NCBI GenBank assembly: GCA_029210625.1
Contig: JARGFU010000022.1
Coordinates: forward strand, 25,051-89,050
Length of the DNA: 64,000 nucleotides
From: Deltaproteobacteria bacterium
GTDB lineage: Bacteria; Myxococcota; Myxococcia; SLRQ01
Reading direction: 5' to 3'
The notes beneath the pieces were generated by a model. That model was not told the origin of the DNA. It worked only from the letters and a program-made list of their open reading frames with translations, and searched no databases. Below, piece after piece: positions 9,701 to 37,015 of this stretch; the stretch's first letter is position 1; each line of letters starts with the position of its first letter. Both the position numbers and the translations under genes were made by a program.

Positions 9701-12700
9701 GGGCGCCCCAGGTCAGCTCCGCCGGCAGCGGGGTGTCCACGTGGCCGGCGTCGGTCCAGGCCGTGGGGACCTGATGGCAGTCGGCGCAGACCACCTCGCG
9801 ATGCCAGCCGCTGGCGCCCAGGTGGCTCTGGTGGGCGCCCACCCCGGTGTCGCTGGTCACCGTGTCGCCCGCGGCGTCGACCGGCGGGGCGTCGCTCGAG
9901 GCCGAGCCATGGCAGGTGTTGCAGGCCAGGGGCACGAGCTGCACGGTCCCGTCCACGTGCTCGGAGGGCGTCGAGAAGGTCTGGCCGGCCGCGGCGTCGG
10001 GGTGACAGCTCTCGCAGTCGGTGCGCGGGACGTGGGGGTAGGCCGGAGGCAGACCGTGGCAGTTGCCGCAGGCGGCCTGGCTGCCATCGACGGTGGTCCA
10101 GACCGGCGTCGTGTCGGCGCCGCCGGCGATCAGGGTCTGGCCGTGGCAGTAGTTGTCGCAGGAGCCCCCGGAGTAGGTCGGCGTGGCGCCGTCGTTGACC
10201 GGGAGGGTGCCCCAGGTCAGCTCCGCCGGCAGGGGCGTGTCGAGGTGGCCGACGTCGGTCCAGGCCGCCGGGACCTGATGGCAGTCGGAGCAGACCAGCC
10301 TCCGGTGCCAGCTGTTGGTCCCGAGGTGGCTCTGGTGGGCCCCGACGCCCGCGTGGGTGGTGAGCGCGTCGCCGCCCGTGTCGACCGGCGGCGCGTTGCT
10401 GGTCGCGGAGCCGTGGCAGGTGTTACAGGCCAGCGGCACCAGATCGACGATGCCGTCGACGTGCTGCGCCGGAGCCGAGAAGCTCAGGCCGGCGGCGGCG
10501 TCCGGGTGGCAGGTCTCGCAGTCGCTGCGGGCGACATGGGGGAAGGCCGGGGGCAGGCCGTGGCAGGTGCCGCAAGCTGCCTGGCTGCCATCGACGGTCG
10601 TCCAGCTCGGGGTGGTCTCGCTGCCGCCGGCGATCAGGGTCTGGCCGTGGCAGTAGGTGTCGCAGCTGCCGGCCACGAAGGTCGGGACCGAGCCGTCGGC
10701 CAGGGCCACGGCGCCCCAGGTCAGCTCGGCGGGGAGCGGGGTGTCGGTGTGGCCGACGTCCCCGACGGCCGCCGGGACGAGGTGGCAGTCGTCGCAGCCG
10801 ACGGCCCGGTGCCAGGAGGTGTCACCCGCGACGTGGCTCTGGTGGGCCCCGACGCCGGGCGCGCTCGTCGCCAGGTTGCCCAGGGTGTCCTGGGGCGGCG
10901 CGTCGTTGGTCGCCGAGCCGTGGCAGGAGTTGCAGGAGAGGGTCAGCTGGACGAGCCCGTCGATGTGCGTGGCGGGATCGTCGGGGGTGGTGCCGGTGAA
11001 GGGATGGCAGCCCGAGCAGTCGGTGGCGGCGACCGCCGGGTGGGGCCCCGCCGGAGGCAGCCCGTGGCAGGTGCCGCAGGCGGCCTGCGTGCCGTCCACG
11101 GTGGTCCAGTCGGGGGTCGTGTCGCTGCCGCCCGAGAGGAGGGTCTGGCCGTGGCAGTAGTTGTCGCAGGAGCCCCCGATGAAGGTCGGAGCGGCGCCGT
11201 CGGCCAGGGGCAGGCCTCCCCAGGTGAGCTCCGCGGGCAGCGGCGTGTCGACGTGGCCCGGATCCGTCCACTGGAGGGGCACCCGGTGGCAGGCGTCGCA
11301 CTGCACCTCGCGGTGCCAGGAGCTGGTGCCGAGGTGACTCTGGTGAGCGCCCACGCTCGTCAGCGCGGTGCTGGCGTTGCCGGTGGTGTCCACCGGCGGG
11401 GCGTCGCTGGTGGCGCCGCCGTGGCAGGTGTTGCACTGCAGCGGCACGAGGTCGACGACGCCATCGACGTGGCGATCCGGCTCCAGGAAGCTGAACCCCG
11501 CGCCGATGTCCGGGTGGCAGCTCTGGCAGTCGAAGCGCGCGGGATGGGGGTAGGCCGGCGGCAGCCCGTGGCAGGTGCCGCAGCTGGCCTGGCTGCCATC
11601 GACGGTGGTCCAGACGGGGGTCGTCTCACTCCCACCGGGCAGGAGAGTCTGACCGTGGCAGTAGTTGTCACAGGAGCCGGCGGTGAAGGTCGGCGCCGCC
11701 GCGTCGGCCAGGGGCACGGCGCCCCAGGTCAGCTCGGCGGGCAGCGGGGTGTCGATGTGGCCGGGGGAGTCCAGGGCGGCCGGGTAGAGGTGGCAGTCGG
11801 TGCACTTGAGGTCCCGGTGCCAGCCCGATCCGGCGGCCAGGTGGGAGGCGTGGGCGCCCACGCCGCGCAGGGAGGTGTCGACGCCGCCGGTGGTGTCGGC
11901 GGGCGGAGCCGGGCCGGTGGCGGGATCACCATGGCAGCTGGTGCAGCCCAGGGGGCCGAGGTCGACGGTTCCGTCCACGTGGCGCTGGGGCTCGAGGAAG
12001 GTGAGGCCATCGGTGTCGATCGTGGGGTGGCAGCGGGAGCAGTCGGTGTCGACCGGGTGTGGCGCCTGAGGTGGCAGCGCGTGGCAGGTGCCGCAGGCCG
12101 CCTGGCTTCCGTCGACGGTGGTCCACTCCGGGGTGGTGTTGGTGCCGCCGGGGTGGAGGGTGACCCCGTGGCAGTAGACGCCGTCGCAGCGGAGCCGATC
12201 CCAGACCGGGCTGGCCCCATCGGCGAGGGGCACGCCCCCCCAGGTCAGCTCGGCGGGCCTCGGGGTGTCGATGTGGCCGACGTCTCCCACGGCGATCGGG
12301 ACCAGGTGGCAGTCCTCGCAGACCACGTCGCGGTGCCAGTCCGAGCCCTCGACCAGGTGGCTGCGGTGGGCGCCCACCTCGGTCGCGCTCGTCAGGGAGC
12401 CGCCCCGCAGGTCCAGGGGGGGAGCGCCGCTCTCCTCGTCGCCGTGACAGAGGACGGCGCAGCTGAGCTCCGTCACGCCGCCATCGGTGCCGCCGCCATC
12501 GGTGCCGCCGCCATCGGTGCCGCCACCATCGGTGCCGCCACCATCGGTGCCGCCACCATCGGTGCCGCCGCCGTCGGTGCCGCCGCCGTCGGTGCCGCCG
12601 CCGTCGGTGTCGCCGCCGTCGGTGCCGCCACCATCGGTGCCGCCGCCGTCGGTGTTGCCGCCGTCGGTACCGGCGTCGGGTAGGCGGCCCCCGGGGTCGG

Positions 12701-12770
12701 AACACTCGCAACCGGCGAAGGACAGAACCAGACAGACACCGAGAATCAGCTCGCGCGATAGTGCTCGCAA
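3750..12770 (-). CDS. Giant multiheme c-type cytochrome lipoprotein (about 83 heme motifs)
   Basis: From TTG 12770 (SD GGAGGGGA upstream) the product is 3006 residues. It has a 20-residue lipoprotein signal ending LSFAGC and then a Thr-Asp-Gly-Gly linker. Residues about 104-2457 form 14 tandem repeats of about 168 residues. Each carries four CxxCH motifs plus one longer motif, CX4CH in repeat 1 (CDGVYCH) and CX3CH in the others (CDNYCH). The layout matches the Geobacter-type CxxxxCH...CxxCH domain. The tail (about 2457-3006) adds about 13 more motifs and ends in a module shared with the other giant. By my count there are 83 motifs: 67 CxxCH, 15 CX3CH and 1 CX4CH. It should be exported, lipidated and loaded with heme by the CcsA/ResB pair encoded just upstream. 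Function as an electron conduit or store is inferred. A longer TTG start at 12830 lacks a sensible signal. Confidence 0.9.
5400..12465 (-). repeat. Array of 14 tandem about 504-bp coding repeats
   Basis: The central part of the giant cytochrome gene repeats about every 504 bases, 14 times. Landmarks recurring in each unit are [49 protein letters not shown], CxxCHPD and HVDG. Repeats differ at many positions but long DNA stretches are near identical, so assembly of copy number deserves care. Three unit junctions (about 5450, 9480 and 10990) carry a variant ending [12 protein letters not shown], which suggests block duplication or gene conversion. Confidence 0.9.
12478..12672 (-). repeat. 15-bp tandem repeat coding a TDGGG linker (13 copies)
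   Basis: Thirteen copies of a 15-base unit (ccatcggtgccgccg and close variants) encode TDGGG-type pentapeptides directly after the lipoprotein signal of the giant cytochrome. The variation is mostly synonymous (gat/gac). It is a flexible surface spacer and probably a slippage-prone tract. Confidence 0.9.
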
Positions 12771-12864
12771 GAACGCTCCCCTCCGCGCCGCAGGGAGTGC
12801 ACGAACCGAACCAGCGCTCAGCTCCGCCAAGCCCTTGAAATCTGGAACCTTGACCGCCTTCCGA

Positions 12865-12958: not shown

Positions 12959-13783
12959 TCAGTCCACCATGAACTCGGTGTGGACCGTCGCCGCCACCCG
13001 GGAGATGACGAAGAAGGCGAAGACGGAGAGGCCGAGGAGGAAGAGGATAGCCCAGGCGGAGGCCTTGCCCTTCACCCGCCAGGTGATCCGGACGTGGAGG
13101 AAGAGGCCGTAGGCGATCCAGGTCGCCAGGGCCCAGGTCTCGATGGGGTCCCAGTCCCAGTAGCGCCCCCAGGCCTCCTGGGCCCAGAGGGCGCCCGCGG
13201 CGACCATGAAGGTCACGGCGATGAAGCCGAAGGCGACGAGCCGGTAGCCCAGGTCGTCGAGGCCGGCGAGCGCCGCACCGAGCTCGGGATCCTGCGCGCC
13301 GCGGCCGCGGCGTTCACGCACGAGGTACGCGAAGGCCACCGCCGACGCGACCAGGATCGATCCGTAGGCGACCTTGGCGAAGCCGATGTGGATCATCAGC
13401 CAGACGCTCTCGAAGGTGGCCGGCAGAGGCTCGACCTCGGGGCTCGAGAGCACGCCCCAGCCCAGCAGCAGGACCGAGAGGCCGAGCACCGGCCCGGCGG
13501 CCAGGCGCAGCGACTCTCGGCGCCAGAGCAGCGCGACCAGGATCGCCACCCCCACCCAGACGCTGGAGGAGAGCACCTCCAGGACGTTGATGTAGGGGCC
13601 GTGGCCGACCCTCACCCAGCGCAGGACGATGGAGAGGCCGAGGAGCGCGAGGCCCAGCGCGGCGGTCGAGAGCACCACCTGGCCGGGGCGCTTGCCCCCC
13701 CAGATCAGGGCGGCCCAGCCGGCGAGGGAGCCGAGGGCCAGGGCGATGGTCCCTGCCCAGAGCAGACCGATCTCGAGGCTCAC
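12959..13783 (-). CDS. ccsA: Cytochrome c assembly protein CcsA/ResC-like
   Basis: This 274-residue multi-pass membrane protein belongs to the CcmF/CcsA heme-handling family. About eight hydrophobic segments can be seen, and the signature Trp-rich motif [15 protein letters not shown] lies in the C-terminal half with conserved flanking His residues ([18 protein letters not shown]). In System II cytochrome c biogenesis, CcsA with CcsB/ResB moves heme outside and attaches it to CxxCH. The GTG start overlaps the ResB-like stop (GTGA), so the two are translationally coupled. It sits between two giant multiheme genes, which are its likely clients. Length fits the family (about 270-330). Confidence 0.88.
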
Positions 13784-14787
13784 GCCGGGCTCCTTCCCTT
13801 CTTCCTTCCGCGCATCGTCCAGAGGTAGTGCCAGAGGAGGAAGAAGGGCAAGGCTGCGAGCAGGGTCACCACCACCGGCCAGACCGGATCGTAGGGGGCC
13901 GAGAGGCGGGCGTAGGTGGGCAGCGCCTCGAGGCGCAGGGTGCCCAGAGGCAGCTCGAGCGCCTGCCCCACCGCCAGCCGCCAGGGCTCGGTCGCACCGG
14001 GGAGGATCAGCGCGACGCGAGCCTCGGGGGGGGCCTCGAGCCGCCACCGCTCCCCCTCGCCCCGCAGGTCGGGCAGCTCGAGCTCGGCGGAGATGGCGCC
14101 GCTTCCTCCCGGCAGGTTCAGCACCTGCACCTGCTCGAGGGGTTTTCTCCGGTACTCGGGGAAGGTGATCGCCCCCTGGCTGCGAGCGCCCGAGGGCGTG
14201 GTCAGGGAGAAGAGGGCGGCGAAGCCGGCGTTGGGCCAGAGGGAGTAGCGCACCCCGCTCACGCTCACCCCCTGCCCCGGTCGCAGGACGATGGAGCGGA
14301 CCGCCCCACCCTCCTCGTTCACCTGCAGCCGGGCCTCGGCCGCGAGCTGAGTGCCGCTGCGGTGGTACTCGACCTGGTAGCGCTCGAGGCGCACCCCCGC
14401 CTCCTGGAGCCAGCCGGGCGCCAGGGGCCCCCGGCTCCGCACGGTGGCGGCCAGACCCCGCTCTTGCCCCTCGATGAGGAGGAGCTCGCACTCCTGATGG
14501 ACGAGGCGTCCGGCGCCGGCCACGCCGCAGAGTCCGATGAGGGCCAGGTGGAAGCCCAGGAGGCCGGGCTTGCGCAGGAAGCCCTTCCAGCGCCGCGCCA
14601 CCGTGGCCACGAGGTTGAGGGCCAGGGCGAAGAGCAGGGCAACCCTGGGCCACTCGCTCTCGACGAGCTCCTGGGCGCCAAGGACGAGGATGACCATGAG
14701 GACGAGCAGCAGCCCGGCCGTGAGCCGGAGCGAGGCCAGGCCCGCGAGGCCCCGACGCCACCCACGCCCCGCCCGAGCGGCCCTCAT
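13780..14787 (-). CDS. ResB/CcsB-like cytochrome c biogenesis protein
   Basis: The 335-residue protein has three N-terminal hydrophobic helices (LRLTAGLLLVLMVILVLGA, VALLFALALNLVATV, LLGFHLALIGLCGVAGAG), a large periplasmic domain with beta-strands (about 110-300), and a last helix ending in a Lys/Arg-rich tail. This is the topology of ResB/CcsB, the heme-delivery partner of CcsA. It is shorter than usual ResB and the sequence match is weaker than for CcsA. The start is ATG 14787 with GGGGAG 5-6 bases upstream, 10 bases after the stop of the preceding giant gene. The order giant, resB, ccsA, giant implies co-expression with clients. Confidence 0.7.
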   Translation of the reverse strand: MRAARAGRGWRRGLAGLASLRLTAGLLLVLMVILVLGAQELVESEWPRVALLFALALNLVATVARRWKGFLRKPGLLGFHLALIGLCGVAGAGRLVHQECELLLIEGQERGLAATVRSRGPLAPGWLQEAGVRLERYQVEYHRSGTQLAAEARLQVNEEGGAVRSIVLRPGQGVSVSGVRYSLWPNAGFAALFSLTTPSGARSQGAITFPEYRRKPLEQVQVLNLPGGSGAISAELELPDLRGEGERWRLEAPPEARVALILPGATEPWRLAVGQALELPLGTLRLEALPTYARLSAPYDPVWPVVVTLLAALPFFLLWHYLWTMRGRKKGRSPA

Positions 14788-14797
14788 GGGCTCTCCC

Positions 14798-17700
14798 CTA
14801 GCCGCAAGTTCCAATGTCGTTGTGGCAGTCGCTCTCGGACCAGCTGCCACTCGGTCCCCAGTTGGCCATGTTGCTGTCGGTCGCAAATCCGTAGCCGGTG
14901 GTCGGCCTGCGGTAGGGCAGCGGATCGGTGTCGACCACGATCGGGTAGGGCCGCTGCCAGCCGTGGGGGATCATCCCGTGGCACCCCGAGCACGCCACGT
15001 TCCCCCCGTGCCGCCGGCAGTGCAGGTTGTCGCCGCCGGCCACCCGGAAGCCGGTGGCGGTCGAGTTCTGGCTGCAGTTGTTCCCACCGTAGACGCTCGG
15101 ATCGTGGCAGCGGTGACAGAAGTTGTTGGCGGTGGTCCCGCCGGTGTTCTGATCCCAGACCCCCCCCACGAGCATGTAGTTCACCCCCGAACCGTGGGGG
15201 CCCTTGTCGCTCGCCGCATCATCGGTGTTGTGGCAGTCCGAACAGGTGATCTCGGCCCCGGCGGACCAGCCGCCCACGAAGGAGCCCGTGGTCATCGTGC
15301 TGTCCCGGGTGACGGCGTGCATCCGCTGGTTGTTCGGGTTGAAGTCGAGGGCCAGGTTGGTGCGCAGGCCGCCCGAGAGGGTGTCGCCGGGCGCTCCGGT
15401 GCCCCAGGCCCAGTCGGAGTGGCACTTGAAGCAGATCTGCCACTCGGCGGTGACCGGATCGATCACGGAGTAGGCGGTACCCGCCGGCTCGGTCCAGGCC
15501 CCCAGGCCGCTCCAGTCGACGTCGACCCCGCTGACCCCCTGGAGGGGGCTGTCGCCTCCGAGGGTGCGGGTGCCCTGGGAGTGGAGGGTCGCGCCGGCCT
15601 CGTGGACGTCGTGGCAGTCCTGGCAGGCCACGTGCCGGTTCGCCCCGAAGTAGGTGCCGTCGCCGAAGGCGGCCGAGGCCTCGGCGATGCTGTCGTGGAC
15701 CGTGTCCGAGAGGACCGGGTGGGCCCTGGTGTCGGCGAGAGGTGTCTGGATGTCCTTGCCGGCGCCGGTGCCATGGCACTCGAAGCAGAGGAAGCTCGCC
15801 GCCGCGTTGTTGCCGATGGGGCTGCCGTGGAGGAGCGAATCGTAGCGGGAGTAGTGCACCGCCGCGAAGGGCAGGCCGCTCTCGGTGGGCGAGCTGTCGT
15901 CGGGATCGGCGTGGCACTTCGTGCAGTTGCGGCCGAAGCTCGAGCCGTCGTGGAAGTTGTAATAGCCCGTGACGTAGTCGTGGGCGCTGCTGGCGTAGGA
16001 GAGGGCCGAGATGGCCGGGTGCAGCTCACCGCCGATGGTCACCGGGTATTGGTGGCAGGAGGTGCAGCCGCCGCCGGTCGAGAGGGCCCCGTCGAAGTCG
16101 GTGGCCATGGCCGGGTCGGTGGCGGTGCGGCTCGCCGCGGTGCGGGCGTCCTCGTAGAGGTTGTTCTCGTGGGTGGTCAGGACTCCCTCGGTGTGGGGGT
16201 GGTCGTTGTGGCACATGTTGGTGCAGCTGCGCGCCGCAGGCGCGACCGAGTCCAGGGGGTTGGCCCAGGTGGCGTCGGGGCTGGCGGGATCGAAGCTGTC
16301 GTTGACCAGCGTGACGTTCCCGATGGCGTGGCGGCTGACGATGGTCGCCCCGCCCAGGGTCGTGGTGGTCGCGCCGTTCATCCGCACCCAGAGATCGTTG
16401 TGGCAGCCGTTGCACTCGACGCCGCCCTCCGACTCGCCGGCGGCGAAGCCTCCGGAGTGGCCGTGGCAGCTCACGCACTTGGTCGTGTAGTGCCCCGCGG
16501 TGCCCGGGGTGCTGTCCGAGTTCCGGAACTGCGGAGTGCCTCCCACGTTCTGGGTCTGGGTGTGGCAGACCTCGCAGGGGCCGGTGCCGGTGCCCGTGGC
16601 CAGGCCGTAGGGCTCTACCCCGGTCGTCATCAGCCGGAAGTCCACGGCCTTCGCGCCGCTGTTCGGGGTCTGGATGGTCTCGTTGACCAGGTAGATGTTC
16701 CGGCTGCCGTGGGGGTCGTGGCAGGTGCGGCAGGTGAAGGTCGTACCCCAGGTGCCGTAGTCGGTGGAGGTGTTGTCGCTGTTGTGGACCTTGAGGGCGT
16801 GGCAGCCGGTGCAGAGCGAATCGTCGTTGTCCCGCCGCAGGAGGTTCCCGTCGCCGGCGCCGATGGTGATCGGGCCGTCGTAGGTGACGCTGCTGGAGTC
16901 GGCGTAGTGCGGTCCGTGACAGGAGAGGCAGGTGACGTTCCCGGTGGTGTACGAGCCGCCGCCGCTGGCCAGGACGATGTTGTTGGTGATGTTGCCGTCG
17001 GAGTCGACCTCGAAGGTGTCTCCCTTCAAGGGCGCGCTCGAGAGGGCGGTCCCCCAGGTGATCCGGGTCGCGGTGGAGGAGGTGATCTGCCGGTACTGAT
17101 TCACGTTCGCGCCGCTGGTGAAGCGCACGAAGCTTCCCGTCAGGTCGGGCCAGGCCTGGGCCGCGTGGTCCAGGTAGGTCGGCGAGGGGCTGTCGCTGGC
17201 GACCGCCCCCTTGATGTAGGGCAGCTGGACGTCGAAGACGGTGTCGCCGTCGGCGTCGGCGTCGAGGGGCCGGGACCAGAAGTTCTGCGTCCGGCAGGGG
17301 CCGGCGCCGCAAGGATCGCCCAGGACGCACAAGCCGTCCGAGGGGAAGTAGCCGGCGCCGATGTCGCACTCGTCGCAGTTGGGTCCGGTGTAGCCCGTCT
17401 GGCAGGAGCAGACCGGCGCCGGGGTCAGGTCGCAGACCCCGCAGCTCGTGCCGTAGTACTGCCCGACGCAGTCGCAGATGGGCTGCTCGTTCTCGTCGAC
17501 GTAGCAGGTCCCTCCGTTGAGGCAGGTGACCCCGGTGCAGGGGTTCGTGGCGCGGCACTCCCCGTTGCGGGCCTGGTAGCCGCTGGCGCACGCATCGCAG
17601 TTCGGGCCGGCGTAGCCCGCCGGGCACTGGCAGTAGTAGTTGCCCACGGGGGTGCACTGGGAGCAGGTCGCCCCGAACCACTGGCCGGTGCAGTCGCAGA

Positions 17701-20700
17701 CCGCGCTGTCGTTCTGGTCGACGTAGCAGGTGCCCCCGTGCTCGCAGACCACGCCGCTGCAGGGATCGGTGTTCACGCAGACCCCGTTGCGCAGGGTGTA
17801 GCCGGTGTCGCACTGATCGCAGGCGGCCCCGGTGTAGCCGGTGTCGCAGGTGCAGCTGTAGCCGCCGGGCACGTACTGGTTCGGACCCCAGTTCTGGCAG
17901 GTCCCTCCGGTGAAGGCGGCGTCACCTCCGCAGGTGTCGGACTCCGCCGGGACGTAGCCGGTGTTCGTCGTGAACATGATGCCGTCGAAGCCCGGCCGCT
18001 CCTGGCCGCCCTCCCCGTTGTTCACCGAGATCGTGCAGGAGAGGACGTGCCCCCCCCGATCGAGCTGGATGGCGCCGTTGGCGTTCGCGGCCGCCCAGCA
18101 CCAGCGCTCGGTGAAGCCCAGGCCGGTGCAGCCCGTGCCATAGGTGCCGGCGTTCATCCCGTCCTTGGTGAGGCTGAACGCCAGCGTCCCCACGCCCGTG
18201 ACGCCGGTGAGGGTGCAGTCGTAGTCCTCACCGGGCTCGATGCTGTCGTCGCCCGAGACTCGCATCCAGAGCTTGAAGCTGGTGCCGTCGGGGGACTGGG
18301 TGGTGAAGGTCTGGGTGAGGGTGATCGTCTCGGTGCCCTGGCCCTGCTGGGTGTCCAGGCTGCAGTCGGTGCCGATGGCGCCGGCGAGGTTGATCTCGTC
18401 GCCGACGCAGGAGCTCGAGACGCAGGGCTGCCCCGCCCCCTGCGCCGCGTTGTTGGCGCAGACCTGGACCTCGGTGCCGGCGGCCGGGCCACTGCAGTCG
18501 CCGTAGCCACAGCGCTGGGGCGTGCCGGTGCAGGTCAGCGCCGAGCAGGTGGCGCCTCCGCCCCCGCCCCCGGTGAAGCCCGCGGAGCAGGTGCCGCAGT
18601 CGCCTCCGGTGAAGCCCATGGGGCAGTCGCAGTCGATCTCGTCGAGGTTCGGGGTGTCCTGGCAGGCCCCGGACACGCCGTTGCAGGAGCTGGCCAGGCA
18701 GTCCTCGTCCGGGATGCAGACCTTGTCGCTGTCCCGGTGGTGCTCTCCAGCGACGCACTCGACGGTCTCGCAAGCGAGGGGTGAGCAGCCGGTGCAGTCG
18801 AGGCCGAACCACTGGCCGACGCAGTCGCAGACCGGGTTGTCCCCGGCGTCGACGAAGCAGGTGCCGCCGTTCTGGCAGGTCACGCCGCTGCAGGGATCGG
18901 TGTTCACGCAGACGCCGTTGCGCATGATGTAGCCGGCGTCGCACTGATCGCAGGCGGCGCCGGTGTAGCCGGTGTCGCAGGTGCAGGAGGGCGTGCCCGG
19001 GTCGTAGACGTTCGGTCCCCAGTTCTGGCAGGTCCCGGCGGTGAAGGCCGCGTCACCCCCGCAGGTGTTGGTGTCGTTGGGCGTCTTGGCGGTGTCGGTG
19101 GTGAAGAAGATGCCGTCGAAGCCGGCGAACTCGTTGACGTCGCTGCCGGTGATGGTGCAGGAGAGGGTGTGGGAGCCCTGCTGGAGCTGGACCGTCCCGG
19201 CGGCGCTCGGCGCCGCCGCCCAGCACCACTGCTCGGTGAAGTTGATATCGGTGCAGGCGGTCCCGTGGGTGCCGGCGCCGAGGGAGGCCTCGGAGAAGGT
19301 GAAGGAGAGGGTCCCCGAGCCGGTGACCCCGGAGAGCGTGCAGCGGTACTCCTCGGTGCCCCCGTCCCAGCTCGCGTCGGCGGCGATCCGCATCCAGAGG
19401 CGGAAGGCGGTGCCGTCGATCGACTGGGTGGTGAAGGTCTGGGAGAAGGTCAGGGTGTAGGTCCCGACGTCGGAGCAGTCGGTGCCGATGGCGCCCCCCA
19501 CGGTGGTGCCGTCGCTCACGCAGGAGGTCGAGACGCAGGGCTGCCCGGCGCCCTGGTTCGCGTTGTTCGAGCAGGCCTGCTCCTCGATCGCCACCCCGCT
19601 GCCGACGCAGTCACCGAAGCCGCAGCGGTTGCCCGCCGTCACGCAGGCGTCGGCGGTGCAGGCTGCTCCCCCGCCGCCTCCCCCGGAGAAGCCCGTCACG
19701 CAGGTCGTGCAGACCTGGTCCGCGAAGCCGAGGGGGCAGTCACAGTAGTACTCGTCGCCGTTGGGGGTGGCCTGACAGGCGCCGCTCACGTCCCCGCAGG
19801 CGCCGACTCCGCAGGCGGTGTCGGGGACGCAGACCGCATCGACGTCCCGGTGGTGCTCTCCCCCGGGGCAGTCGCTCAGGTTGCAGTCGGCGGTGAGGGT
19901 CGCGCAGGTGCCGGCGCCACAGGCGGCCCCCTGGGCGCTGCAGGTGTCGCCGACGCAGGTCCCGGCGGTGAGGGTGTACCCCGGCGAGCAGCCCGCGCAG
20001 GCCGGATCGGCGAAGCCCACCGGGCAGTCGCAGACGATCTCGTCGCCGCTGGGGTTGGTCTTGCAGGCGCCCAGGACGCTGTTGCAGCTGGTCGGCACAC
20101 AGCTCTCGTCGGCGATGCAGGTGCCGTCGAGATCGGCGTGGTGGTTCGTGGGCAGGCAGGCGCTCGTCGAGCAGCCCGGGGGGTTGGAGATGCCGCAGGT
20201 GCCGAAGCCGCAGGCTGCGGCGTCGACCAGGCAGGCCTCGGCGGCGCAGGGCGTCCCCGAGAAGCCGCTGGCGCAGACCGAACAGCCGCTCCCCGAGGCG
20301 CCCACCGGGCAGGAGCCCGGCAGGGGGACGTTCACCGGGTGGGAGAGCGCGGCGCCGGTCCAGGTGCCGTGGCCGGCATCCTGGAGATCGCGAACCTGGT
20401 GACAGTTCAGGCACATCTGCCCGTAGGCGTTCTCGGAGCGGAGGAAGTGCCTGCCGGCAAAGCCCGCGGTGGCCGGCGCCCGGGCGTCGGCCGGGCGCTT
20501 CGCCTGGAGGTGCTGATCGTGACAGGTCGAGCACATCAGGGTCGCTCCCCCCTCGAGCCGGATTGCCATCTCGGGGTCGGTGGGGAAGTTCGCCGCCAGG
20601 GTCGGATTGTCCACCGCCGCGTCCCAGCGGTGGGAGGTGCCCGCCGTGCCGGGGGTCGCCTGATCCCCCAGCGAGAGGGGGAAGGCGTTGGTGTCGTGGC

Positions 20701-23700
20701 AGGAGAGGCAGAGGTTCACGTTGCCGCTCACGCTGGTCAGGGTGAGCCCCGCTGACTGGTGCCCGACGTGGCAGGCGGCGCAGCCCGAGGGGATCTCGCC
20801 GATGCCGTGAGGGGGATCGGTGGCCGCCGCCGGCCCGGCCAGGCTCCCGGCCAGGAGGAGCGCGAAGAGCCGCACGCCGGCCCGGCGCCGGGGGAGCGCC
20901 AGGAGCGCCAGGACGAGGAGCGCGAGGAGCGGCCCCCCACCCTCCCCGCTCTGCTGGCAGCCGCAGCCGGCCTGGGGATCGACCGGCGGCGTGCCGCCGT
21001 CCGCGCCGCCATCGACGGCCGGGCCCCCGTCGGGCTCGCCGCCACCGTCGGTGGAGCCACCGTCGACGCCACCGTCGGGATCGGTCCCGCCGTCCGGGGT
21101 GAGCCCGGGCACCTCGGTGGCAGAGGGGAAGACCTCGCTGCCGACGAAGATGGGCGGCACCTCCTCGGGCGGCACCTCCAGCTCGACCAGGGCGGAGCGC
21201 CCGAGGTAGCGGCCGTCGTCGGCGGTCAGGCCGAAGCGATAGAGGCCCGGCAGCTCGGGAGCGAAGGTGGCGAGGGTCGAGCTGCGGCCGCCCAGGGCGG
21301 CCCGGGGCCCGTTGACCTGGTACCAGAGGTAGCCGGGACGATCGGCGCCGTTCGCGTCGAAGCTGCGCGTGCCGTCCAGGGTGATCGTGTCACCGATGCG
21401 ACCCTCACCGGCCGAGGCCAGCACGATCGGCACCTGGGCGCCGAGAGGATCGTGGATCGAGCCCGCGAGCTCGACCGCCGGCCCCACCAGCCGTCCGTCG
21501 TCGGCCTGGACCGCGAAGCGGTAGTGACCCACGGCGAGGGGGAAGAAGCGCACCCGCGCCGGATCGAGGCGCTCGAGGAAGACCGTGGCCCCCCCCAGCT
21601 GTTCGAAGAGGCAGGTGATGGCCTGACCGTCGGCGTCGAGGTCGGCCCCGCAGTCCAGGGTGACCGGCTTGAGGAGGTTCCCACCGAAGGTCGGCTCCGG
21701 GCTGATCCGGGGCAGGCTGTCCCCGGGCTCGTCGATCATCACCAGGACCTCCGCCGGGAGACCCTCGCCCGCCGGGTCGAAGGCCCCGAGGCGGAAGCGG
21801 TAGACGCCCGCCTCGGGCGCCGTGAAGGTGGCGACGCCCGGGGTGGGGCGCTGCAGGCTGACCACGGGGCCCTCCAGCTGATCCCAGTTCAGCGCCAGGA
21901 CGTCGCCGTCGGGATCGACGCTGCCGCTTCCGTCGAGGATCACCTCTTCGCCCACGAGGGCGGCGATCCGCTCCGGCGCCACGGCCGTGGGGAGGCGAGC
22001 ACCGGGACCATCGACGCGGAGCGTGGTCCGCCCGGTGGCCGAGAGGCCGTCGGCGTCGGTGACCTCCACCTCGAAGACGTAGGTGCCATTGATCGCTGGG
22101 GTCAGGGTCACCTCGGCGATGCGCGGATCGTTCAGGGCGACGGCGGGGCCGCCCAGCTGGCTCCAGCGGAAGCTCAAGGGGTCGCCGTTCGCGTCGTGGG
22201 AGAAGGCCGCCGAGAGGGTGACCGCCTCGCCGACCATGGCGTCGACGATCGGCCGCAGGTCCGGAGAGGGCGGCAGGTTCATCACCTCGATCTCGGTGAC
22301 GACCTCGGGGAGGGTCGCGCTCGCGTCGGAGACCGTGAGCCCGAAGTGGTAGATGCCCGCTCGCCGCAGCGCCACGTGGTCCTTGCGCTCCTCGAGGAGC
22401 TCCACGGGCTCGGGACCGTCGATCTGTCGCCAGAGCAGCGTGAGGGGCTCGTTGGTGGGATCCCCGAGGCTCGTCGGCTGGAGCCGCAGGTAGCGGGGAG
22501 GCGTCGTCACGACCGGCTCCACGCTCACCCAGGGGAGCTGGTCGCTGGCGTCGTTCGGGTTCCGCCCGGCGTGCAGCTCCTGCCCGTCCGGCACCCCGTC
22601 CCCGTCGCCGTCGGGGTCGAAGGGGTCGGTTCCATTGAAGTACTCGTCCAGGTTGGCGAGGCCGTCGCCGTCGGGATCCGCCCAGGCATCCCGCGCGTCG
22701 TTGGGGTCCGTCCCGTTCAGCACCTCCCAGCCGTCGGGGAGACCGTCGCAGTCGGCGTCCCCGGCGCAGAGGATGGGCTGCACCCCGGTGGGGGGGAGGT
22801 AGGTCACGACCCGGCCGTTGCCGGCATCGGCGATCCAGATCCGGCCCGAGGGACCGACGGCGACGTCCTGGGGCGAGTGGAGCAACCCGCTGACGTGGCC
22901 GTGCCCCCCGATGGTCCCGAGGAAGGTCCCGTCACTGGCGAAGTCGACCAGGACGCTCTGGAAGGCATCGACGATGAGCCGCTCACCGTCGGCCTGCCGC
23001 AGGTTCCCCGCCGGCCGGACCAGCTCGCCCGGGTTGGAGCCCTGGACACCGAAGGTCCCGAGGACGAAGCCCTGGTCGTCGACCTCGAGCAGCACGCTGT
23101 AGCGCGTCTCGGAGAGCCAGACGTGCCCGTTGGTCTGGTCGACACCCGCGGCGATCGGGCGGTAGCCCGAGGGCAGCAGGCGCCTCCAGAGGCGCAGCCC
23201 GCTTGAGGCGTAGCGGGAGACCCGGGGGGGCGTCGACTCGAGGGCGAGGAGATCGCCGCCCGGGAGCCCCACCAGATCCAGGGCGCCGGAGAGCTCTCCC
23301 GCCCCCTGCCCCGCGGCCTGGACCACCCCTCCGCTCGCGTCGAGGCGGTAGAGCCACCCGCCCTCGCTATCGGCGACCCAGACTCCGCCATCGGACGTCG
23401 GCACGAGGCCGGTGGGGACCCCGCGGGCCGCGAGCACGGCGGCCAACGCTCCGCTCTCGGTGTAGCGGACGATCTGGCGGCGGCGGGGATCGGACGCCCA
23501 GACGCCCCCGGTGGGGACGTCGATGATCCGGTTGGGGAAGAAGGTGATCGATCCCGCCGGCACCGGCAGGGAGGCGCCGAAGATCGCGGACGCCACCTCG
23601 ACCTCGACGGTGCGCTCGGAGGTGACCCCCAGCGTGTCGCTCACGACCACCGTGACCTCCTGGGCCCCGAGGACGACCGGCGCGGTCCAGGTGACCCGCT

Positions 23701-24295
23701 CGGGATCGGCGTCGGCCTCTCCGGTGATCGTGCCGGCCGAGGCGCTCCAGACATGGCTCAGAGTGCTGCCCACCGGCGCCGAGGTGATCGCGAGGAGCTC
23801 GCTGGTCTGGCCGGGGCGGATGAGGGTGGGGGCCACCTGGATCTCCGTGACCACCACCGGCTGCACGTCGGCCACGGCCACGCTCCGGGCGAAGACCACG
23901 CTCTGGAGAGGGGTGGGGAGGAAGCCGCCGCTGTCGAAGACCGAGCAGGCGACGGTGACCGCGGGGGTGGCGGCGGCGGGCGCGGTCCAGACCACGGTGG
24001 TGGCGGTGTGGGGGCTGGGGGGGACGAGATCCAGATCGAGGGTGGTGACGCCGCCGGGCAGGGTCCCGGCGCTCACCTCGAAGCGCACCCGGGTGACCTG
24101 ACCGTCCGGATCGTGCGCCCGGCAGGTCAGCTCGATGTCGGCGCCGAGGGGAGCGGGGGCCGTGGAGAGCTGGAGGGCATCCACCAGGGGCCGGTCGTTT
24201 CCGAGGCCACCGGCCCACGCGGTGGGAGCCTGGACCACAGCCGCGCACACCACCACGGCCGCGATCAACGAGCGAGAAATGCAAGATTTTCTCAC
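14798..24295 (-). CDS. Giant exported propeller/PKD/EGF/multiheme protein (possible polyprotein)
   Basis: The 3165-residue frame starts at GTG 24295 (SD GGAGG, 8-base spacing) with a signal peptide cut after AWA. In order it has Ig-like strands, an NHL-type beta-propeller (about 255-505), thrombospondin-3 calcium repeats (about 508-585), PKD-like domains (590-1062) and an Asp/Gly linker. A MYXO-CTERM-like tail follows (Cys1111, Cys1113, hydrophobic, RRR1136-1138). Directly after comes a second signal peptide (Val1141 GTG to Ala1158). Then come four CxxCH motifs (about 1160-1310), a Cys-rich EGF-like block with an internal duplication (about 1320-2335), and 15 more heme motifs (14 CxxCH and one CX3CH, CTNMCH). 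The C terminus matches that of the 3750-12770 protein. It may be one fused protein or be processed into an anchored propeller part and a secreted 19-heme part. It heads the unidirectional cytochrome cluster. Confidence 0.85.
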   Translation of the reverse strand: MRKSCISRSLIAAVVVCAAVVQAPTAWAGGLGNDRPLVDALQLSTAPAPLGADIELTCRAHDPDGQVTRVRFEVSAGTLPGGVTTLDLDLVPPSPHTATTVVWTAPAAATPAVTVACSVFDSGGFLPTPLQSVVFARSVAVADVQPVVVTEIQVAPTLIRPGQTSELLAITSAPVGSTLSHVWSASAGTITGEADADPERVTWTAPVVLGAQEVTVVVSDTLGVTSERTVEVEVASAIFGASLPVPAGSITFFPNRIIDVPTGGVWASDPRRRQIVRYTESGALAAVLAARGVPTGLVPTSDGGVWVADSEGGWLYRLDASGGVVQAAGQGAGELSGALDLVGLPGGDLLALESTPPRVSRYASSGLRLWRRLLPSGYRPIAAGVDQTNGHVWLSETRYSVLLEVDDQGFVLGTFGVQGSNPGELVRPAGNLRQADGERLIVDAFQSVLVDFASDGTFLGTIGGHGHVSGLLHSPQDVAVGPSGRIWIADAGNGRVVTYLPPTGVQPILCAGDADCDGLPDGWEVLNGTDPNDARDAWADPDGDGLANLDEYFNGTDPFDPDGDGDGVPDGQELHAGRNPNDASDQLPWVSVEPVVTTPPRYLRLQPTSLGDPTNEPLTLLWRQIDGPEPVELLEERKDHVALRRAGIYHFGLTVSDASATLPEVVTEIEVMNLPPSPDLRPIVDAMVGEAVTLSAAFSHDANGDPLSFRWSQLGGPAVALNDPRIAEVTLTPAINGTYVFEVEVTDADGLSATGRTTLRVDGPGARLPTAVAPERIAALVGEEVILDGSGSVDPDGDVLALNWDQLEGPVVSLQRPTPGVATFTAPEAGVYRFRLGAFDPAGEGLPAEVLVMIDEPGDSLPRISPEPTFGGNLLKPVTLDCGADLDADGQAITCLFEQLGGATVFLERLDPARVRFFPLAVGHYRFAVQADDGRLVGPAVELAGSIHDPLGAQVPIVLASAGEGRIGDTITLDGTRSFDANGADRPGYLWYQVNGPRAALGGRSSTLATFAPELPGLYRFGLTADDGRYLGRSALVELEVPPEEVPPIFVGSEVFPSATEVPGLTPDGGTDPDGGVDGGSTDGGGEPDGGPAVDGGADGGTPPVDPQAGCGCQQSGEGGGPLLALLVLALLALPRRRAGVRLFALLLAGSLAGPAAATDPPHGIGEIPSGCAACHVGHQSAGLTLTSVSGNVNLCLSCHDTNAFPLSLGDQATPGTAGTSHRWDAAVDNPTLAANFPTDPEMAIRLEGGATLMCSTCHDQHLQAKRPADARAPATAGFAGRHFLRSENAYGQMCLNCHQVRDLQDAGHGTWTGAALSHPVNVPLPGSCPVGASGSGCSVCASGFSGTPCAAEACLVDAAACGFGTCGISNPPGCSTSACLPTNHHADLDGTCIADESCVPTSCNSVLGACKTNPSGDEIVCDCPVGFADPACAGCSPGYTLTAGTCVGDTCSAQGAACGAGTCATLTADCNLSDCPGGEHHRDVDAVCVPDTACGVGACGDVSGACQATPNGDEYYCDCPLGFADQVCTTCVTGFSGGGGGGAACTADACVTAGNRCGFGDCVGSGVAIEEQACSNNANQGAGQPCVSTSCVSDGTTVGGAIGTDCSDVGTYTLTFSQTFTTQSIDGTAFRLWMRIAADASWDGGTEEYRCTLSGVTGSGTLSFTFSEASLGAGTHGTACTDINFTEQWCWAAAPSAAGTVQLQQGSHTLSCTITGSDVNEFAGFDGIFFTTDTAKTPNDTNTCGGDAAFTAGTCQNWGPNVYDPGTPSCTCDTGYTGAACDQCDAGYIMRNGVCVNTDPCSGVTCQNGGTCFVDAGDNPVCDCVGQWFGLDCTGCSPLACETVECVAGEHHRDSDKVCIPDEDCLASSCNGVSGACQDTPNLDEIDCDCPMGFTGGDCGTCSAGFTGGGGGGATCSALTCTGTPQRCGYGDCSGPAAGTEVQVCANNAAQGAGQPCVSSSCVGDEINLAGAIGTDCSLDTQQGQGTETITLTQTFTTQSPDGTSFKLWMRVSGDDSIEPGEDYDCTLTGVTGVGTLAFSLTKDGMNAGTYGTGCTGLGFTERWCWAAANANGAIQLDRGGHVLSCTISVNNGEGGQERPGFDGIMFTTNTGYVPAESDTCGGDAAFTGGTCQNWGPNQYVPGGYSCTCDTGYTGAACDQCDTGYTLRNGVCVNTDPCSGVVCEHGGTCYVDQNDSAVCDCTGQWFGATCSQCTPVGNYYCQCPAGYAGPNCDACASGYQARNGECRATNPCTGVTCLNGGTCYVDENEQPICDCVGQYYGTSCGVCDLTPAPVCSCQTGYTGPNCDECDIGAGYFPSDGLCVLGDPCGAGPCRTQNFWSRPLDADADGDTVFDVQLPYIKGAVASDSPSPTYLDHAAQAWPDLTGSFVRFTSGANVNQYRQITSSTATRITWGTALSSAPLKGDTFEVDSDGNITNNIVLASGGGSYTTGNVTCLSCHGPHYADSSSVTYDGPITIGAGDGNLLRRDNDDSLCTGCHALKVHNSDNTSTDYGTWGTTFTCRTCHDPHGSRNIYLVNETIQTPNSGAKAVDFRLMTTGVEPYGLATGTGTGPCEVCHTQTQNVGGTPQFRNSDSTPGTAGHYTTKCVSCHGHSGGFAAGESEGGVECNGCHNDLWVRMNGATTTTLGGATIVSRHAIGNVTLVNDSFDPASPDATWANPLDSVAPAARSCTNMCHNDHPHTEGVLTTHENNLYEDARTAASRTATDPAMATDFDGALSTGGGCTSCHQYPVTIGGELHPAISALSYASSAHDYVTGYYNFHDGSSFGRNCTKCHADPDDSSPTESGLPFAAVHYSRYDSLLHGSPIGNNAAASFLCFECHGTGAGKDIQTPLADTRAHPVLSDTVHDSIAEASAAFGDGTYFGANRHVACQDCHDVHEAGATLHSQGTRTLGGDSPLQGVSGVDVDWSGLGAWTEPAGTAYSVIDPVTAEWQICFKCHSDWAWGTGAPGDTLSGGLRTNLALDFNPNNQRMHAVTRDSTMTTGSFVGGWSAGAEITCSDCHNTDDAASDKGPHGSGVNYMLVGGVWDQNTGGTTANNFCHRCHDPSVYGGNNCSQNSTATGFRVAGGDNLHCRRHGGNVACSGCHGMIPHGWQRPYPIVVDTDPLPYRRPTTGYGFATDSNMANWGPSGSWSESDCHNDIGTCG
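17280..20330 (-). other. EGF-like Cys-rich block inside multiheme protein
   Basis: This coding segment (about residues 1320-2335 of the frame starting at 24295) contains many EGF-like motifs (CQNGGTC, CDTGYTGAACDQC, CPAGYAGPNC). An approximately 300-residue unit occurs twice, around the phrases CGFGDC / CGYGDC, LWMRI / LWMRV and CQNWGPN. No CxxCH motifs fall inside it. EGF-like domains normally form disulfides, whereas the flanking CxxCH motifs bind heme. Confidence 0.75.
20873..20965 (-). other. In-frame MYXO-CTERM-like tail followed by second signal peptide
   Basis: Residues 1111-1138 read CGC, Gln/Gly spacer, hydrophobic helix, PRRR, as in MYXO-CTERM sorting tails. Two residues later GTG 20875 begins MRLFALLLAGSLAGPAAA, a textbook signal peptide with AAA cleavage site before TDPPHG. 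No stop codon separates them and no ribosome-binding site precedes the internal GTG. The two helices with RRRAGVR between them would form a membrane hairpin with the positive loop inside. Confidence 0.7.
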
Positions 24296-34498: not shown

Positions 34499-37015
34499 CT
34501 AGCGGCGCCGGCGAAGCCCGAGGAGCGCCAGGCCCGCGAGGAGGAGCGAGAGCCCGAGCCCCGTGGGCCCGCGGGCGCTCTCGCAGCCACCGGCGGGCTG
34601 CAGGGCCGAGCGCAGCTCGGGGATCGAGCTCTGCCAGACCAGGGTCTTCACGTTGCCGGCCTCGTCCCGCACCCTCGCCTCGAGGCTGCGATCGTCGACG
34701 CCGAGGGTCGTCTCGGCCTCCGGCCCGAAGGAGGTGAAGGCCCCGCCGTCCCGGGCGAAGGCGTACTCCAGCCGCCCGGCCGGGGTGACGTCGTCCCGGG
34801 CCTCGACCCGCACCACGCCGCTCTCGGGCTCGACCAGCAGCCGCGCCGTGGGGGCGGCCCAGTCGATGATCACCTCGGCCGCGGCCGGGGTGGGATCGAG
34901 GGTGTGGTAGTCGTCCAGCGCCCGCGCGCGCACCTCGATGCGGTGCCGCCCGGGCAGCAGCAGCTGCCGGGCCCGCACGGTGATCTGCCGGGCGGTCGAG
35001 AAGGGCGACCAGAAGCCGCCGTCGATCCGGTACTGCCACTCGAGGCCGGGGGAGCCCTTGCGCGCGTCGTGGCCGCTCAGGGCGAGCCGGACCTCGGGCC
35101 GGGGCAGCGGGACGCCGACGACGGGCCGCATGGCCTCCTCGAGGGGCGTGCGCACGTCGAGGACGGTCACGCCCGTCTCGACCACGAAGGGCGCCGGGGT
35201 GGCCGGGTTGAAGAGGAGGTCGGCCAGGATGCCCATGTGCTCGAAGTGACCGGGCTCGCTGGGGCGCGCCACCATGCCGCCGATCTTCTTCACGTCGAGG
35301 CCGAAGCCCTGCAGATCCGGCAGGGCGATGGGGCCGAGGGCGTCGGCCAGCATCGGCTCGATGAGGCCGATGATCGCCGGGATCAGGTCCTCGAGGACGG
35401 CCGGATCCTCGGCGAGGATCTCCGAGTTCATGGCCTGGATGTTGGTGACCAGGCTGCCGAGGTCGCCCAGGATCGGCACCAGCTCGTTCTGGGCGGTGAA
35501 CTCCAGCGCCAGCGGCAGGGCCAGGTCCATCTTCAGGGTGAAGAGGCGGACCATCCGCTCCTCGATCTGCGCGTAGAAGTCGAGGTGCAGGTCGGGGAGG
35601 TTCACCGTCAGCAGGGGCTCGTCGATCACCTTGACGCCGTTCTCGTCGTGCCAGGTGCCCGCCCCGATGTCGACCGTGGGCCGGTCCTTGGGCCGCAGGC
35701 CGATGAACATCGGCGCGTTGCGGCCCTCGGTGAGGCTGTCGAGGCTGGGCAGGAAGGTCTTGAAGAGCCCGGCGGAGATGAGATCGAGGGTGTCGCTGCC
35801 GATGTTCAGGCAGAGGCCGCCGCCCCGGTAGAGGTCGTAGAGGAACTTGTCGAGGAAGCGGTCGGAGACCCCGACCCCCGCGTGGAAGCTGTTGACGCCG
35901 GCGTTGGTGGCCTCGATGGGGAAGTCGATCCGCGGCGGCGGGTCGGTGGCGGGCAGGCTGCTCGCGTCGGGCACGCAGGCGTGGGGCTGGGCGTAGGAGC
36001 CGGTGATCACGCGCAGGTCGAGGGGCGCGCCGTTGACCCGCACGTAGGGGTCGGCCACGGGCTGGGCCTCCTGGCCGGGGGCGACGAAGACGTCGATCGG
36101 GGCCGAGGCGCCGCCGGTGAGGGCGCCGAGGAGCTGGCCGACGTCGAGGTTGCCCACCATGCCCATCGGGGAGCGCACGCAGGAGGAGGTGGTGGGGTTC
36201 ATGCACCAGCCGGTGGAGCCGTCGCAGGTGGCGCCGCCGCCCACGCCCGTCGCGCAGCCCGCGGTGAAGTAGTCGCAGGGCATGCAGGTCATGTCGTCGA
36301 TGGTGCCCTGCACCTGGCCGTTGATCTGGTCCTGCAGCATGCCGTTGGCGAAGCCGGCGATGAGGTCCCGGATGAAGCCCCAGTCGGCCATGTCGCAGAG
36401 CAGACCGCCCTCGACCCGGAAGTCGTTGCACGAGAGGGAGACGTCGAGGTTCTCGAGGTCGAAGGTCGTCACCTTCATCAGGGGGTCGACGCCAAGGACG
36501 ACGTCCGCGCTGATGGGCTTGTTGGTGACCGTGATCGCCAGATCGAAGTTGATCTCGGCGCAGACGAAAAGGTTCTGGCAGATGCCCAGGGGGATGTTCG
36601 GCGCGGTGACGTCGAGGTTGGCCGAGAGGTGGAGGCGATCGGCCGCGACGGTGGAGAGGGCGATGTCGTGGATGTCCGCCGTGATCGGGCAGGGGCTGCC
36701 GCCCTCGCAGATCACCTGCTGGCTGTTGCAGCCGAAGGTCGGGCAGCTCATGTTGCCGCCGGCCGGCATGTCGAAGGCCAGCCCGCCGGCCATGAAGCTC
36801 TCGACGATCGGGGTGAAGTTGGCCTCGACGTAGTTGAGGCCCTCGGGGGTCACCTGCAGGAGCATGCCGTCGTAGATCTTCTCGGCCTCGTCCATGTCGG
36901 TGGCCAGCGGCGTCTCACCGCAGCCGCAGCCGCTCCCTCCACTGGAGGAGCACCCCATCGCGACGAGGACGAGGGCGGAATAGGTGAGGCTCTTCGGCAG
37001 GCGGCGGCGACGCAT
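34499..37015 (-). CDS. Large lipoprotein with MYXO-CTERM-like tail, possibly TULIP-like
   Basis: The 838-residue protein starts at ATG 37015 (SD GGGAGGG) with MRRRRLPKSL and a lipoprotein signal ending VLVAMGC. The N-terminal third (VTPEGLNYVEANFTPIVESF, DIHDIALSTVAADRLHLSAN) has long amphipathic segments reminiscent of BPI/LBP-type lipid-carrier (TULIP) domains, a weak inference. Later there are Ig-like domains (RIEVRARALDDYHT, VEARDDVTPAGRLEY). The C terminus ends Gly-Gly-Cys, spacer, hydrophobic helix, RRRR, a MYXO-CTERM-type sorting tail. Carrying both a lipobox and a sorting tail is odd. Many Cys residues suggest disulfides. It is followed by the barrel-like protein at 33928. Confidence 0.7.
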   Translation of the reverse strand: MRRRRLPKSLTYSALVLVAMGCSSSGGSGCGCGETPLATDMDEAEKIYDGMLLQVTPEGLNYVEANFTPIVESFMAGGLAFDMPAGGNMSCPTFGCNSQQVICEGGSPCPITADIHDIALSTVAADRLHLSANLDVTAPNIPLGICQNLFVCAEINFDLAITVTNKPISADVVLGVDPLMKVTTFDLENLDVSLSCNDFRVEGGLLCDMADWGFIRDLIAGFANGMLQDQINGQVQGTIDDMTCMPCDYFTAGCATGVGGGATCDGSTGWCMNPTTSSCVRSPMGMVGNLDVGQLLGALTGGASAPIDVFVAPGQEAQPVADPYVRVNGAPLDLRVITGSYAQPHACVPDASSLPATDPPPRIDFPIEATNAGVNSFHAGVGVSDRFLDKFLYDLYRGGGLCLNIGSDTLDLISAGLFKTFLPSLDSLTEGRNAPMFIGLRPKDRPTVDIGAGTWHDENGVKVIDEPLLTVNLPDLHLDFYAQIEERMVRLFTLKMDLALPLALEFTAQNELVPILGDLGSLVTNIQAMNSEILAEDPAVLEDLIPAIIGLIEPMLADALGPIALPDLQGFGLDVKKIGGMVARPSEPGHFEHMGILADLLFNPATPAPFVVETGVTVLDVRTPLEEAMRPVVGVPLPRPEVRLALSGHDARKGSPGLEWQYRIDGGFWSPFSTARQITVRARQLLLPGRHRIEVRARALDDYHTLDPTPAAAEVIIDWAAPTARLLVEPESGVVRVEARDDVTPAGRLEYAFARDGGAFTSFGPEAETTLGVDDRSLEARVRDEAGNVKTLVWQSSIPELRSALQPAGGCESARGPTGLGLSLLLAGLALLGLRRRR

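Follow-up and report, generated by a model that had tools for sequence, protein, structure and literature searches.

The window, by which we mean the whole stretch of 64,000 nucleotides that was analysed, carries on its minus strand a single open frame of 3165 aa (14798-24295, GTG start) in which a signal peptide, an NHL propeller, PKD domains, a MYXO-CTERM tail, a second, predicted signal peptide and a multiheme cytochrome follow one another. All features of the window given below lie on this strand. The frame opens with a signal-peptide-like stretch (residues 1-28, 24212-24295) that ends in TAWA, the cleavage site being predicted from a reading of the sequence. It is followed by an NHL-type beta-propeller (Pfam NHL; approximately residues 253-503, 22787-23539), whose lower limit is set by a weak Vgb_lyase match and of which residues 407-503 matched chain E of the TRIM71 NHL structure in the PDB (2.5e-18). 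A Bacterial TSP3 repeat (residues 517-534, 22694-22747) leads to the PKD region (approximately residues 596-1045, 21161-22510), where Pfam K319L-like_PKD matched in four stretches (1.3e-39) and a PDB match to KIAA0319L covered residues 596-855. An acidic linker rich in Asp, Gly and Pro, delimited by reading the sequence, lies ahead of the tail (approximately residues 1070-1110, 20966-21088).

The cytochrome half contains four CxxCH heme motifs close to its start (residues 1172-1299, 20399-20782) and 14 more towards its end (residues 2456-3106, 14978-16930). The count is thus 18, not the 19 hemes given in a preliminary description of this locus. Between the two heme blocks lies a Cys-rich, EGF-like region (approximately residues 1300-2440, 16976-20398), defined by the heme positions and by Pfam EGF, whose score is over the cut-off when summed on the whole protein, no single stretch passing by itself. 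This region comprises about 1140 residues which, by eye, are arranged in near-duplicate units. With the cytochrome half as query, the PDB search returned zero matches, and a search of the genome contigs gave seven loci that matched only its heme-rich C-terminal part and were uninformative for the junction.

Directly downstream of the fused gene is a ResB-like cytochrome c biogenesis gene (13780-14886; Pfam ResB, 4.6e-7). A further frame contains a cytochrome c assembly protein of the CcsA/ResC type (12959-14761; Pfam Cytochrom_C_asm, 2.5e-28). The frame of the next cytochrome gene (3750-12830) has 3026 aa, 67 CxxCH motifs and 10 stretches matching Cytochrome_C7; the gene is oriented like the fused one, with the ResB and cytochrome assembly genes between them. 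That one unit, next to cytochrome assembly genes, combines a propeller of the surface type with a multiheme cytochrome hints at extracellular electron transfer.

The junction between the two halves

The internal MYXO-CTERM tail occupies residues 1109-1138 (20882-20971; TIGR03901 and TIGR03382) and consists of GCGC, a hydrophobic helix and RRR, with CGC beginning at residue 1111 and the three arginines at 1136-1138. An in-frame GTG at residue 1141 opens a second, internal signal-peptide-like stretch (residues 1141-1158, 20822-20875) with a predicted cleavage at AAA^TDPPH; residues V1141 to T1159 read (V)RLFALLLAGSLAGPAAA^TDPPHG. Both elements had been proposed in the preliminary description, and both hold up: scanned alone, the N-terminal half passed the curated cut-offs of TIGR03901 (20.9 bits, cut-off 20) and TIGR03382 (16.5 bits, cut-off 15.85), and the stretch behind the GTG is signal-peptide-like by a rule of our own making, which was used for all signal-peptide calls here in place of SignalP. 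When the whole 3165-aa protein was scanned, TIGR03901 gave 18.3 bits, below the cut-off, and in the whole-genome scan the tail reached 26.7 bits. The MYXO-CTERM signature is complete in the tail, with its Cys, hydrophobic helix (best 15-residue hydropathy 2.51) and Arg-rich end. It does not lie at the extreme C-terminus, where MYXO-CTERM belongs, as 2027 residues come after it.

We refer to the tail helix, the Arg loop and the second hydrophobic stretch together as a hairpin. With residues 1-30 set aside, the 12 top-ranking 15-residue segments of the protein by hydrophobicity all start between residues 1117 and 1144, and correspond to the two hairpin helices. AlphaFold output for the junction (four rows) had a mean pLDDT of 38.5, which is too low to use. 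Third-position GC is 0.95 across 60 codons counted from the GC motif. The other two frames had been described as giving no nearby stop that a one-base error would simply explain. They do have stops: relative to the GTG, these lie at -353/+136 nt in one and at -517/+1133 nt in the other. The window sequence alone could therefore not exclude an insertion or deletion at the junction, but its relatives do.

Fused and separate forms of the family

With the junction (residues 1060-1330) as query, a protein search gave at least 15 matches, the window protein itself among them; among the matches listed, eight of the other 14 have their fusion point at this position (P0002-P0006, P0009, P0011 and P0013). 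P0005 is partial and has NHL repeats and no PKD domain. P0008, P0010 and P0012 are stand-alone cytochromes, each having a signal peptide of its own and a comparable mature start, and P0007, P0014 and P0015 are more distant matches. A further search from P0003 gave at least seven matches, of which P0017 (fused), P0016 (stand-alone) and P0018 (more distant) were new. With G107 and G192, found in whole genomes, and the nine fused proteins among the protein matches, the family has at least 12 fused members including that of the window; the counts from these two protein searches, as from the hairpin profile search below, are lower bounds. The junction sequence of G165 equals that of P0009 and was left out of the fused count. 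Also outside the counts are G129 (L034), which has the tail on a contig that ends eight residues past the Arg run; G089 and G084, where the matches run off the contigs; L017, L018 and L022, which match only in the PKD part and carry a MYXO-CTERM-like tail at the stop; and L040, L041 and L026, which match only in the PKD part.

By eye, all 12 fused members share the GC, the hydrophobic helix, the Arg cluster, the second hydrophobic stretch, small residues at -3/-1 and the cytochrome start. The hairpin proposed for the window gene is thus real and conserved, and, as described below, repeated in other proteins. When eight other fused members were scanned whole, TIGR03901 appeared only in P0017 (17.7 bits, below the cut-off).

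The preliminary description had suggested looking for the halves as separate genes elsewhere, and they are found as such. In 15 adjacent gene pairs from 10 genomes, the stop of the propeller/PKD gene and the start of the cytochrome gene are separated by -4 to +5 nt (for the pair L009 on the assumption of a GTG start). One of these pairs is in the window's own genome (G000:C39). The cytochrome genes of all the unfused pairs carry their own signal peptide, and a MYXO-CTERM tail was found on none of the 15 unfused propeller/PKD halves. The N-half match L038 came out with two internal stops, and the unfused, tail-less G093 (L051) was placed in the tree and kept outside the 15 pairs.

The tree was built from the cytochrome start domain with 32 rows (12 fused, 16 unfused and 4 single), after L035_U_34 was dropped as the same gene as L042. 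The fused label changes six times on it, the starred branches forcing at least three of these changes, and the sister of the window protein is the fused P0002 (98/90). A single ancient fusion, that is, one fused clade, was rejected by the tree (p-AU 9.3e-12). The fused state of the propeller-cytochrome family has arisen repeatedly.

Hairpins in other proteins

In the window genome, 35 MYXO-CTERM tails score over the cut-off, 30 of them terminal (stop within 13 residues) and five internal, and a signal-peptide-like stretch lies behind each of the five internal ones. An ordinary tail at a protein end is found in the window itself at 34502-34594 (24.0 bits, with the stop at once). The four other fused proteins join CARDB/Ig domains to a second CARDB/Ig protein (L095), a protein without domain assignment to one without a Pfam match that we take to be TolB-like, a matrixin to a protein without domain assignment, and FG-GAP/Ig domains to a second presumably TolB-like protein that is cut by the contig end. 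L095 (G000:C27:12000-26000, frame 5545-10365) has one tail in mid-chain and a MYXO-CTERM-like tail at its end, the latter judged by eye and absent from the list of 35. Seven relatives, chosen by kinship, were also scanned, and 60 tails were found in six of them, 57 terminal and three internal. A signal-peptide-like stretch comes after each of the three internal tails, two of which are orthologous; the remaining one, at 19.8, falls slightly short of the cut-off. Pooled over seven genomes, all eight internal tails (two of them orthologues) lead into a signal-peptide-like stretch, against 473 of 7200 random positions (6.6%).

A hairpin profile was built from eight hairpins as seeds, and had at least 46 matches in at least 35 of 195 genomes of the phylum. 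Inspection of these matches gave at least 33 hairpins in at least 24 genomes, the remaining 13 matches being ordinary terminal tails; eight of the hairpins are the seeds, and at least 25, in at least 20 genomes, are new. The lowest counted hairpin scored 24.9 bits, against 14.4 bits for the best of the composition-matched reversed frames of the fetched loci. In Geobacter's phylum, a control that is unmatched in GC and is without a positive control of its own, the profile found a hairpin in none of 193 genomes. A chance hydrophobic stretch behind the tail was rejected on account of the 6.6% null against eight of eight, the reversed frames and the control genomes.

The 36 hairpins (at least 33 from the profile and three from relatives) fell into 14 C-half clusters (BLASTP, E 1e-6, 50 residues). 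For the N halves, 32 sequences gave 19 clusters, which is an upper bound because the loci cut N halves. Pfam searches of 10 new hairpin proteins revealed OmpA-type and TPR partners. One C-half cluster stands behind different surface proteins in L096, L098, L112, L115, L117, L130, L131 and L134. By our own reading this eight-member cluster is TolB-like, several members having an LLGC-type motif, and it forms a second repeatedly fused family.

In a further family, the genes of G132, G134 and G095 are fused, the G132 copy (L105) consisting by Pfam of Kelch/Ig domains, the hairpin and OmpA. In G151 a stop codon follows a nearly identical tail, and the same barrel sequence starts downstream in a different frame, behind a signal-peptide-like stretch of its own. 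Either half can thus form a genuine protein end in a sister gene. A check of the three unfused orthologues of this family (L121, L139 and L140) for a downstream partner found it in L121; L140 lies at the end of its contig, and L139 fell outside the check. No such pair of fused and terminal tails was found in the window's family, because its unfused first halves carry no tail.

Ten of the 28 hairpin tails from other genomes were scanned alone and four passed a curated MYXO-CTERM cut-off, two of them that of TIGR03901. L045, L047 and L103 scored below the MYXO-CTERM cut-offs, and L046, L109 and L113 gave no match to TIGR03901 or TIGR03382.

Proposed processing of the fused protein

The MYXO-CTERM of TraA has been shown to be cut by MrtX in a Cys-dependent manner, also in E. 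coli, as reported in PMC11980579. The window genome encodes a myxosortase (G000:C46) that scores 186.1 bits for MrtX (cut-off 180) and 115.6 bits for Mrt_core (cut-off 100), and it also encodes a type II secretin. From its set of MYXO-CTERM tails and from MrtX we assign the genome to the Myxococcota. Mrt_core is over the cut-off in 20 of the 24 hairpin genomes. It was below the cut-off in G117, G049 and G001 (the best match of G001 being at a contig end), and no Mrt_core match was found in G192, a genome that is 96% complete and has a fused member. It is possible that the hairpins of G192 (L047) and G117 (L113) are cut by another protease, or not cleaved.

The conserved and repeated hairpin, together with MrtX and the type II secretin, makes a polyprotein with two cuts the best reading of the window gene. 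We put at roughly 0.7 the probability that this one gene gives rise to two exported proteins made in one chain, with the hairpin cut by myxosortase and by signal peptidase, as judged from sequence. The first signal peptide would start export of the propeller/PKD half, until the MYXO-CTERM helix halts transfer, the Arg loop remaining on the cytoplasmic side. The second hydrophobic stretch would then re-insert as a signal peptide and export the cytochrome, which signal peptidase would cut at AAA^TDPPH and so free to receive its hemes. On the first half, the sorting Cys would acquire a lipid and MrtX would make its cut there, and this half may be released to the surface via type II secretion. The advantage could be that a surface protein and its partner are made at a fixed 1:1 ratio.

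The missing or low Mrt_core matches and the tails below cut-off make an uncut two-helix anchor the main rival. Here the fusion would be real and the chain uncut or cut on one side, with the hairpin keeping both domains at the inner membrane, on its outer side. It is favoured by G192, where a fused member occurs without an Mrt_core match, and by the three further hairpin genomes below the cut-off. The six of ten hairpin tails that miss both MYXO-CTERM cut-offs when scanned alone, and the whole-protein scans in which only P0017 showed TIGR03901, also favour it. In addition, tails occur in this family only when the halves are fused (12 of 12, against none of 15 unfused), as a purely topological role predicts; the lack of a tail on the unfused first halves means that the tail of the fused forms might only turn the chain. 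However, a membrane anchor by itself requires neither a sorting Cys nor small residues at -3/-1. The Cys is kept in all 12 fused members, the -3/-1 residues sit at a mature N terminus that the stand-alone cytochromes share, and the second half of L095 itself ends in a MYXO-CTERM-like tail. On these grounds we regard the uncut anchor as unlikely.

Two proteins might instead arise by an internal translation start at the GTG of the Arg loop, with read-through from upstream as a by-product. Unfused pairs do overlap or abut like coupled genes, and 24 of the 33 hairpins, that of the window included, have an in-frame start codon near the Arg loop, but the other nine have none. A start with a ribosome-site match was found in two of the 33 hairpins, in neither case an ATG, as opposed to nine of the 15 unfused cytochrome starts, and no stop ends the first reading; such a start is therefore very improbable. 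A sequencing or assembly error, by which adjacent genes were joined through a lost stop or an indel, is scarcely credible. Relatives do carry the halves as neighbouring genes, and a stop lies 136 nt past the GTG in another frame, but the same junction is present in 11 other fused proteins, including P0002, the nearest kin of the window protein, the same design recurs in four other proteins of the window genome, and the third-position GC given above also speaks against an error.

Relation to known systems

The preliminary description was aware of no described bacterial polyprotein of this design. The view that there is nothing of the kind is not supported. FbcH of Bradyrhizobium (Thony-Meyer, James and Hennecke 1991) is reportedly one gene for a cytochrome b/c1 polyprotein that gives two proteins, in which a signal sequence within the chain, located behind a membrane helix, releases a c-type cytochrome that is exported. 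A sequence pattern that may correspond to it, a membrane helix followed by a predicted internal signal sequence and a c-type cytochrome, is seen in the window gene by our own signal-peptide rule. FbcH differs in that its first product is reportedly an integral membrane protein and is not known to have a sorting tail; one of the two cuts would apply.

A more recent precedent is MXAN_5598 of Myxococcus xanthus, described by Guo, Haft and Wall 2025 (PMC11980579) as an atypical protein with an internal MYXO-CTERM, probably through gene fusion; its N-terminal part is proposed there to be processed and surface anchored. The authors compare it to TraA/TraB, which are encoded by overlapping ORFs, and refer to sorting tags that function within a protein. 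Compared by description, the window gene, with an internal MYXO-CTERM and a second domain predicted to be exported in one frame, fits the MXAN_5598 type, as does L105 with its order of Kelch/Ig, MYXO-CTERM and OmpA. MXAN_5598 is a single case, and the passages that describe it do not mention a second signal peptide; here there are 36 hairpins with 14 C-half clusters, a multiheme cytochrome as partner in the window, and a signal-like stretch behind eight of eight internal tails that had been collected irrespective of what follows them. MXAN_5598 and FbcH mean that internal tails and exported polyproteins are already in print.

TraA/TraB of Myxococcus xanthus, a MYXO-CTERM surface protein and an OmpA-type partner whose ORFs reportedly overlap by 4 bases, represent the unfused state of the design; they differ from it in being two genes with a stop between them. 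The tripartite tag of the archaeosortase substrate HVO_0405 is, according to a review (PMC9263693), processed though not C-terminal. That system differs in being archaeal, with an unrelated enzyme, ArtA, and a PGF motif. HVO_0405 is not known to have a second export signal. In the titles and opening parts of abstracts of the literature on myxosortase, MYXO-CTERM and bacterial polyproteins, no description of a MYXO-CTERM/signal-peptide hairpin was found. Within that literature, what appears to be new is the regular coupling of the tail to a second signal peptide, its repeated origin and the range of partners.

Bacterial exported proteins are usually viewed as having one signal peptide and giving one product. 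We lean towards the view that in Myxococcota the hairpin of MYXO-CTERM and signal peptide is a general punctuation of exported polyproteins, by which unrelated pairs have repeatedly been fused, are made at 1:1 and are split by two membrane proteases, the partners being multiheme cytochromes, OmpA-type barrels, TolB-like and TPR proteins and second surface adhesins. A recurrent hairpin at which one exported protein stops and another begins would break the rule of one signal and one product, and would be a cellular counterpart of the polyproteins of enveloped viruses that are cut by signal peptidase. It would offer a ready route to two surface or envelope proteins at a fixed ratio, and the gene counts, annotation and proteomics of the phylum would change. 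In L123 and L128 the second signal peptides look lipoprotein-like by eye (LAST-C and SLTA-C), and signal peptidase II may therefore be supplied through the hairpin as well.
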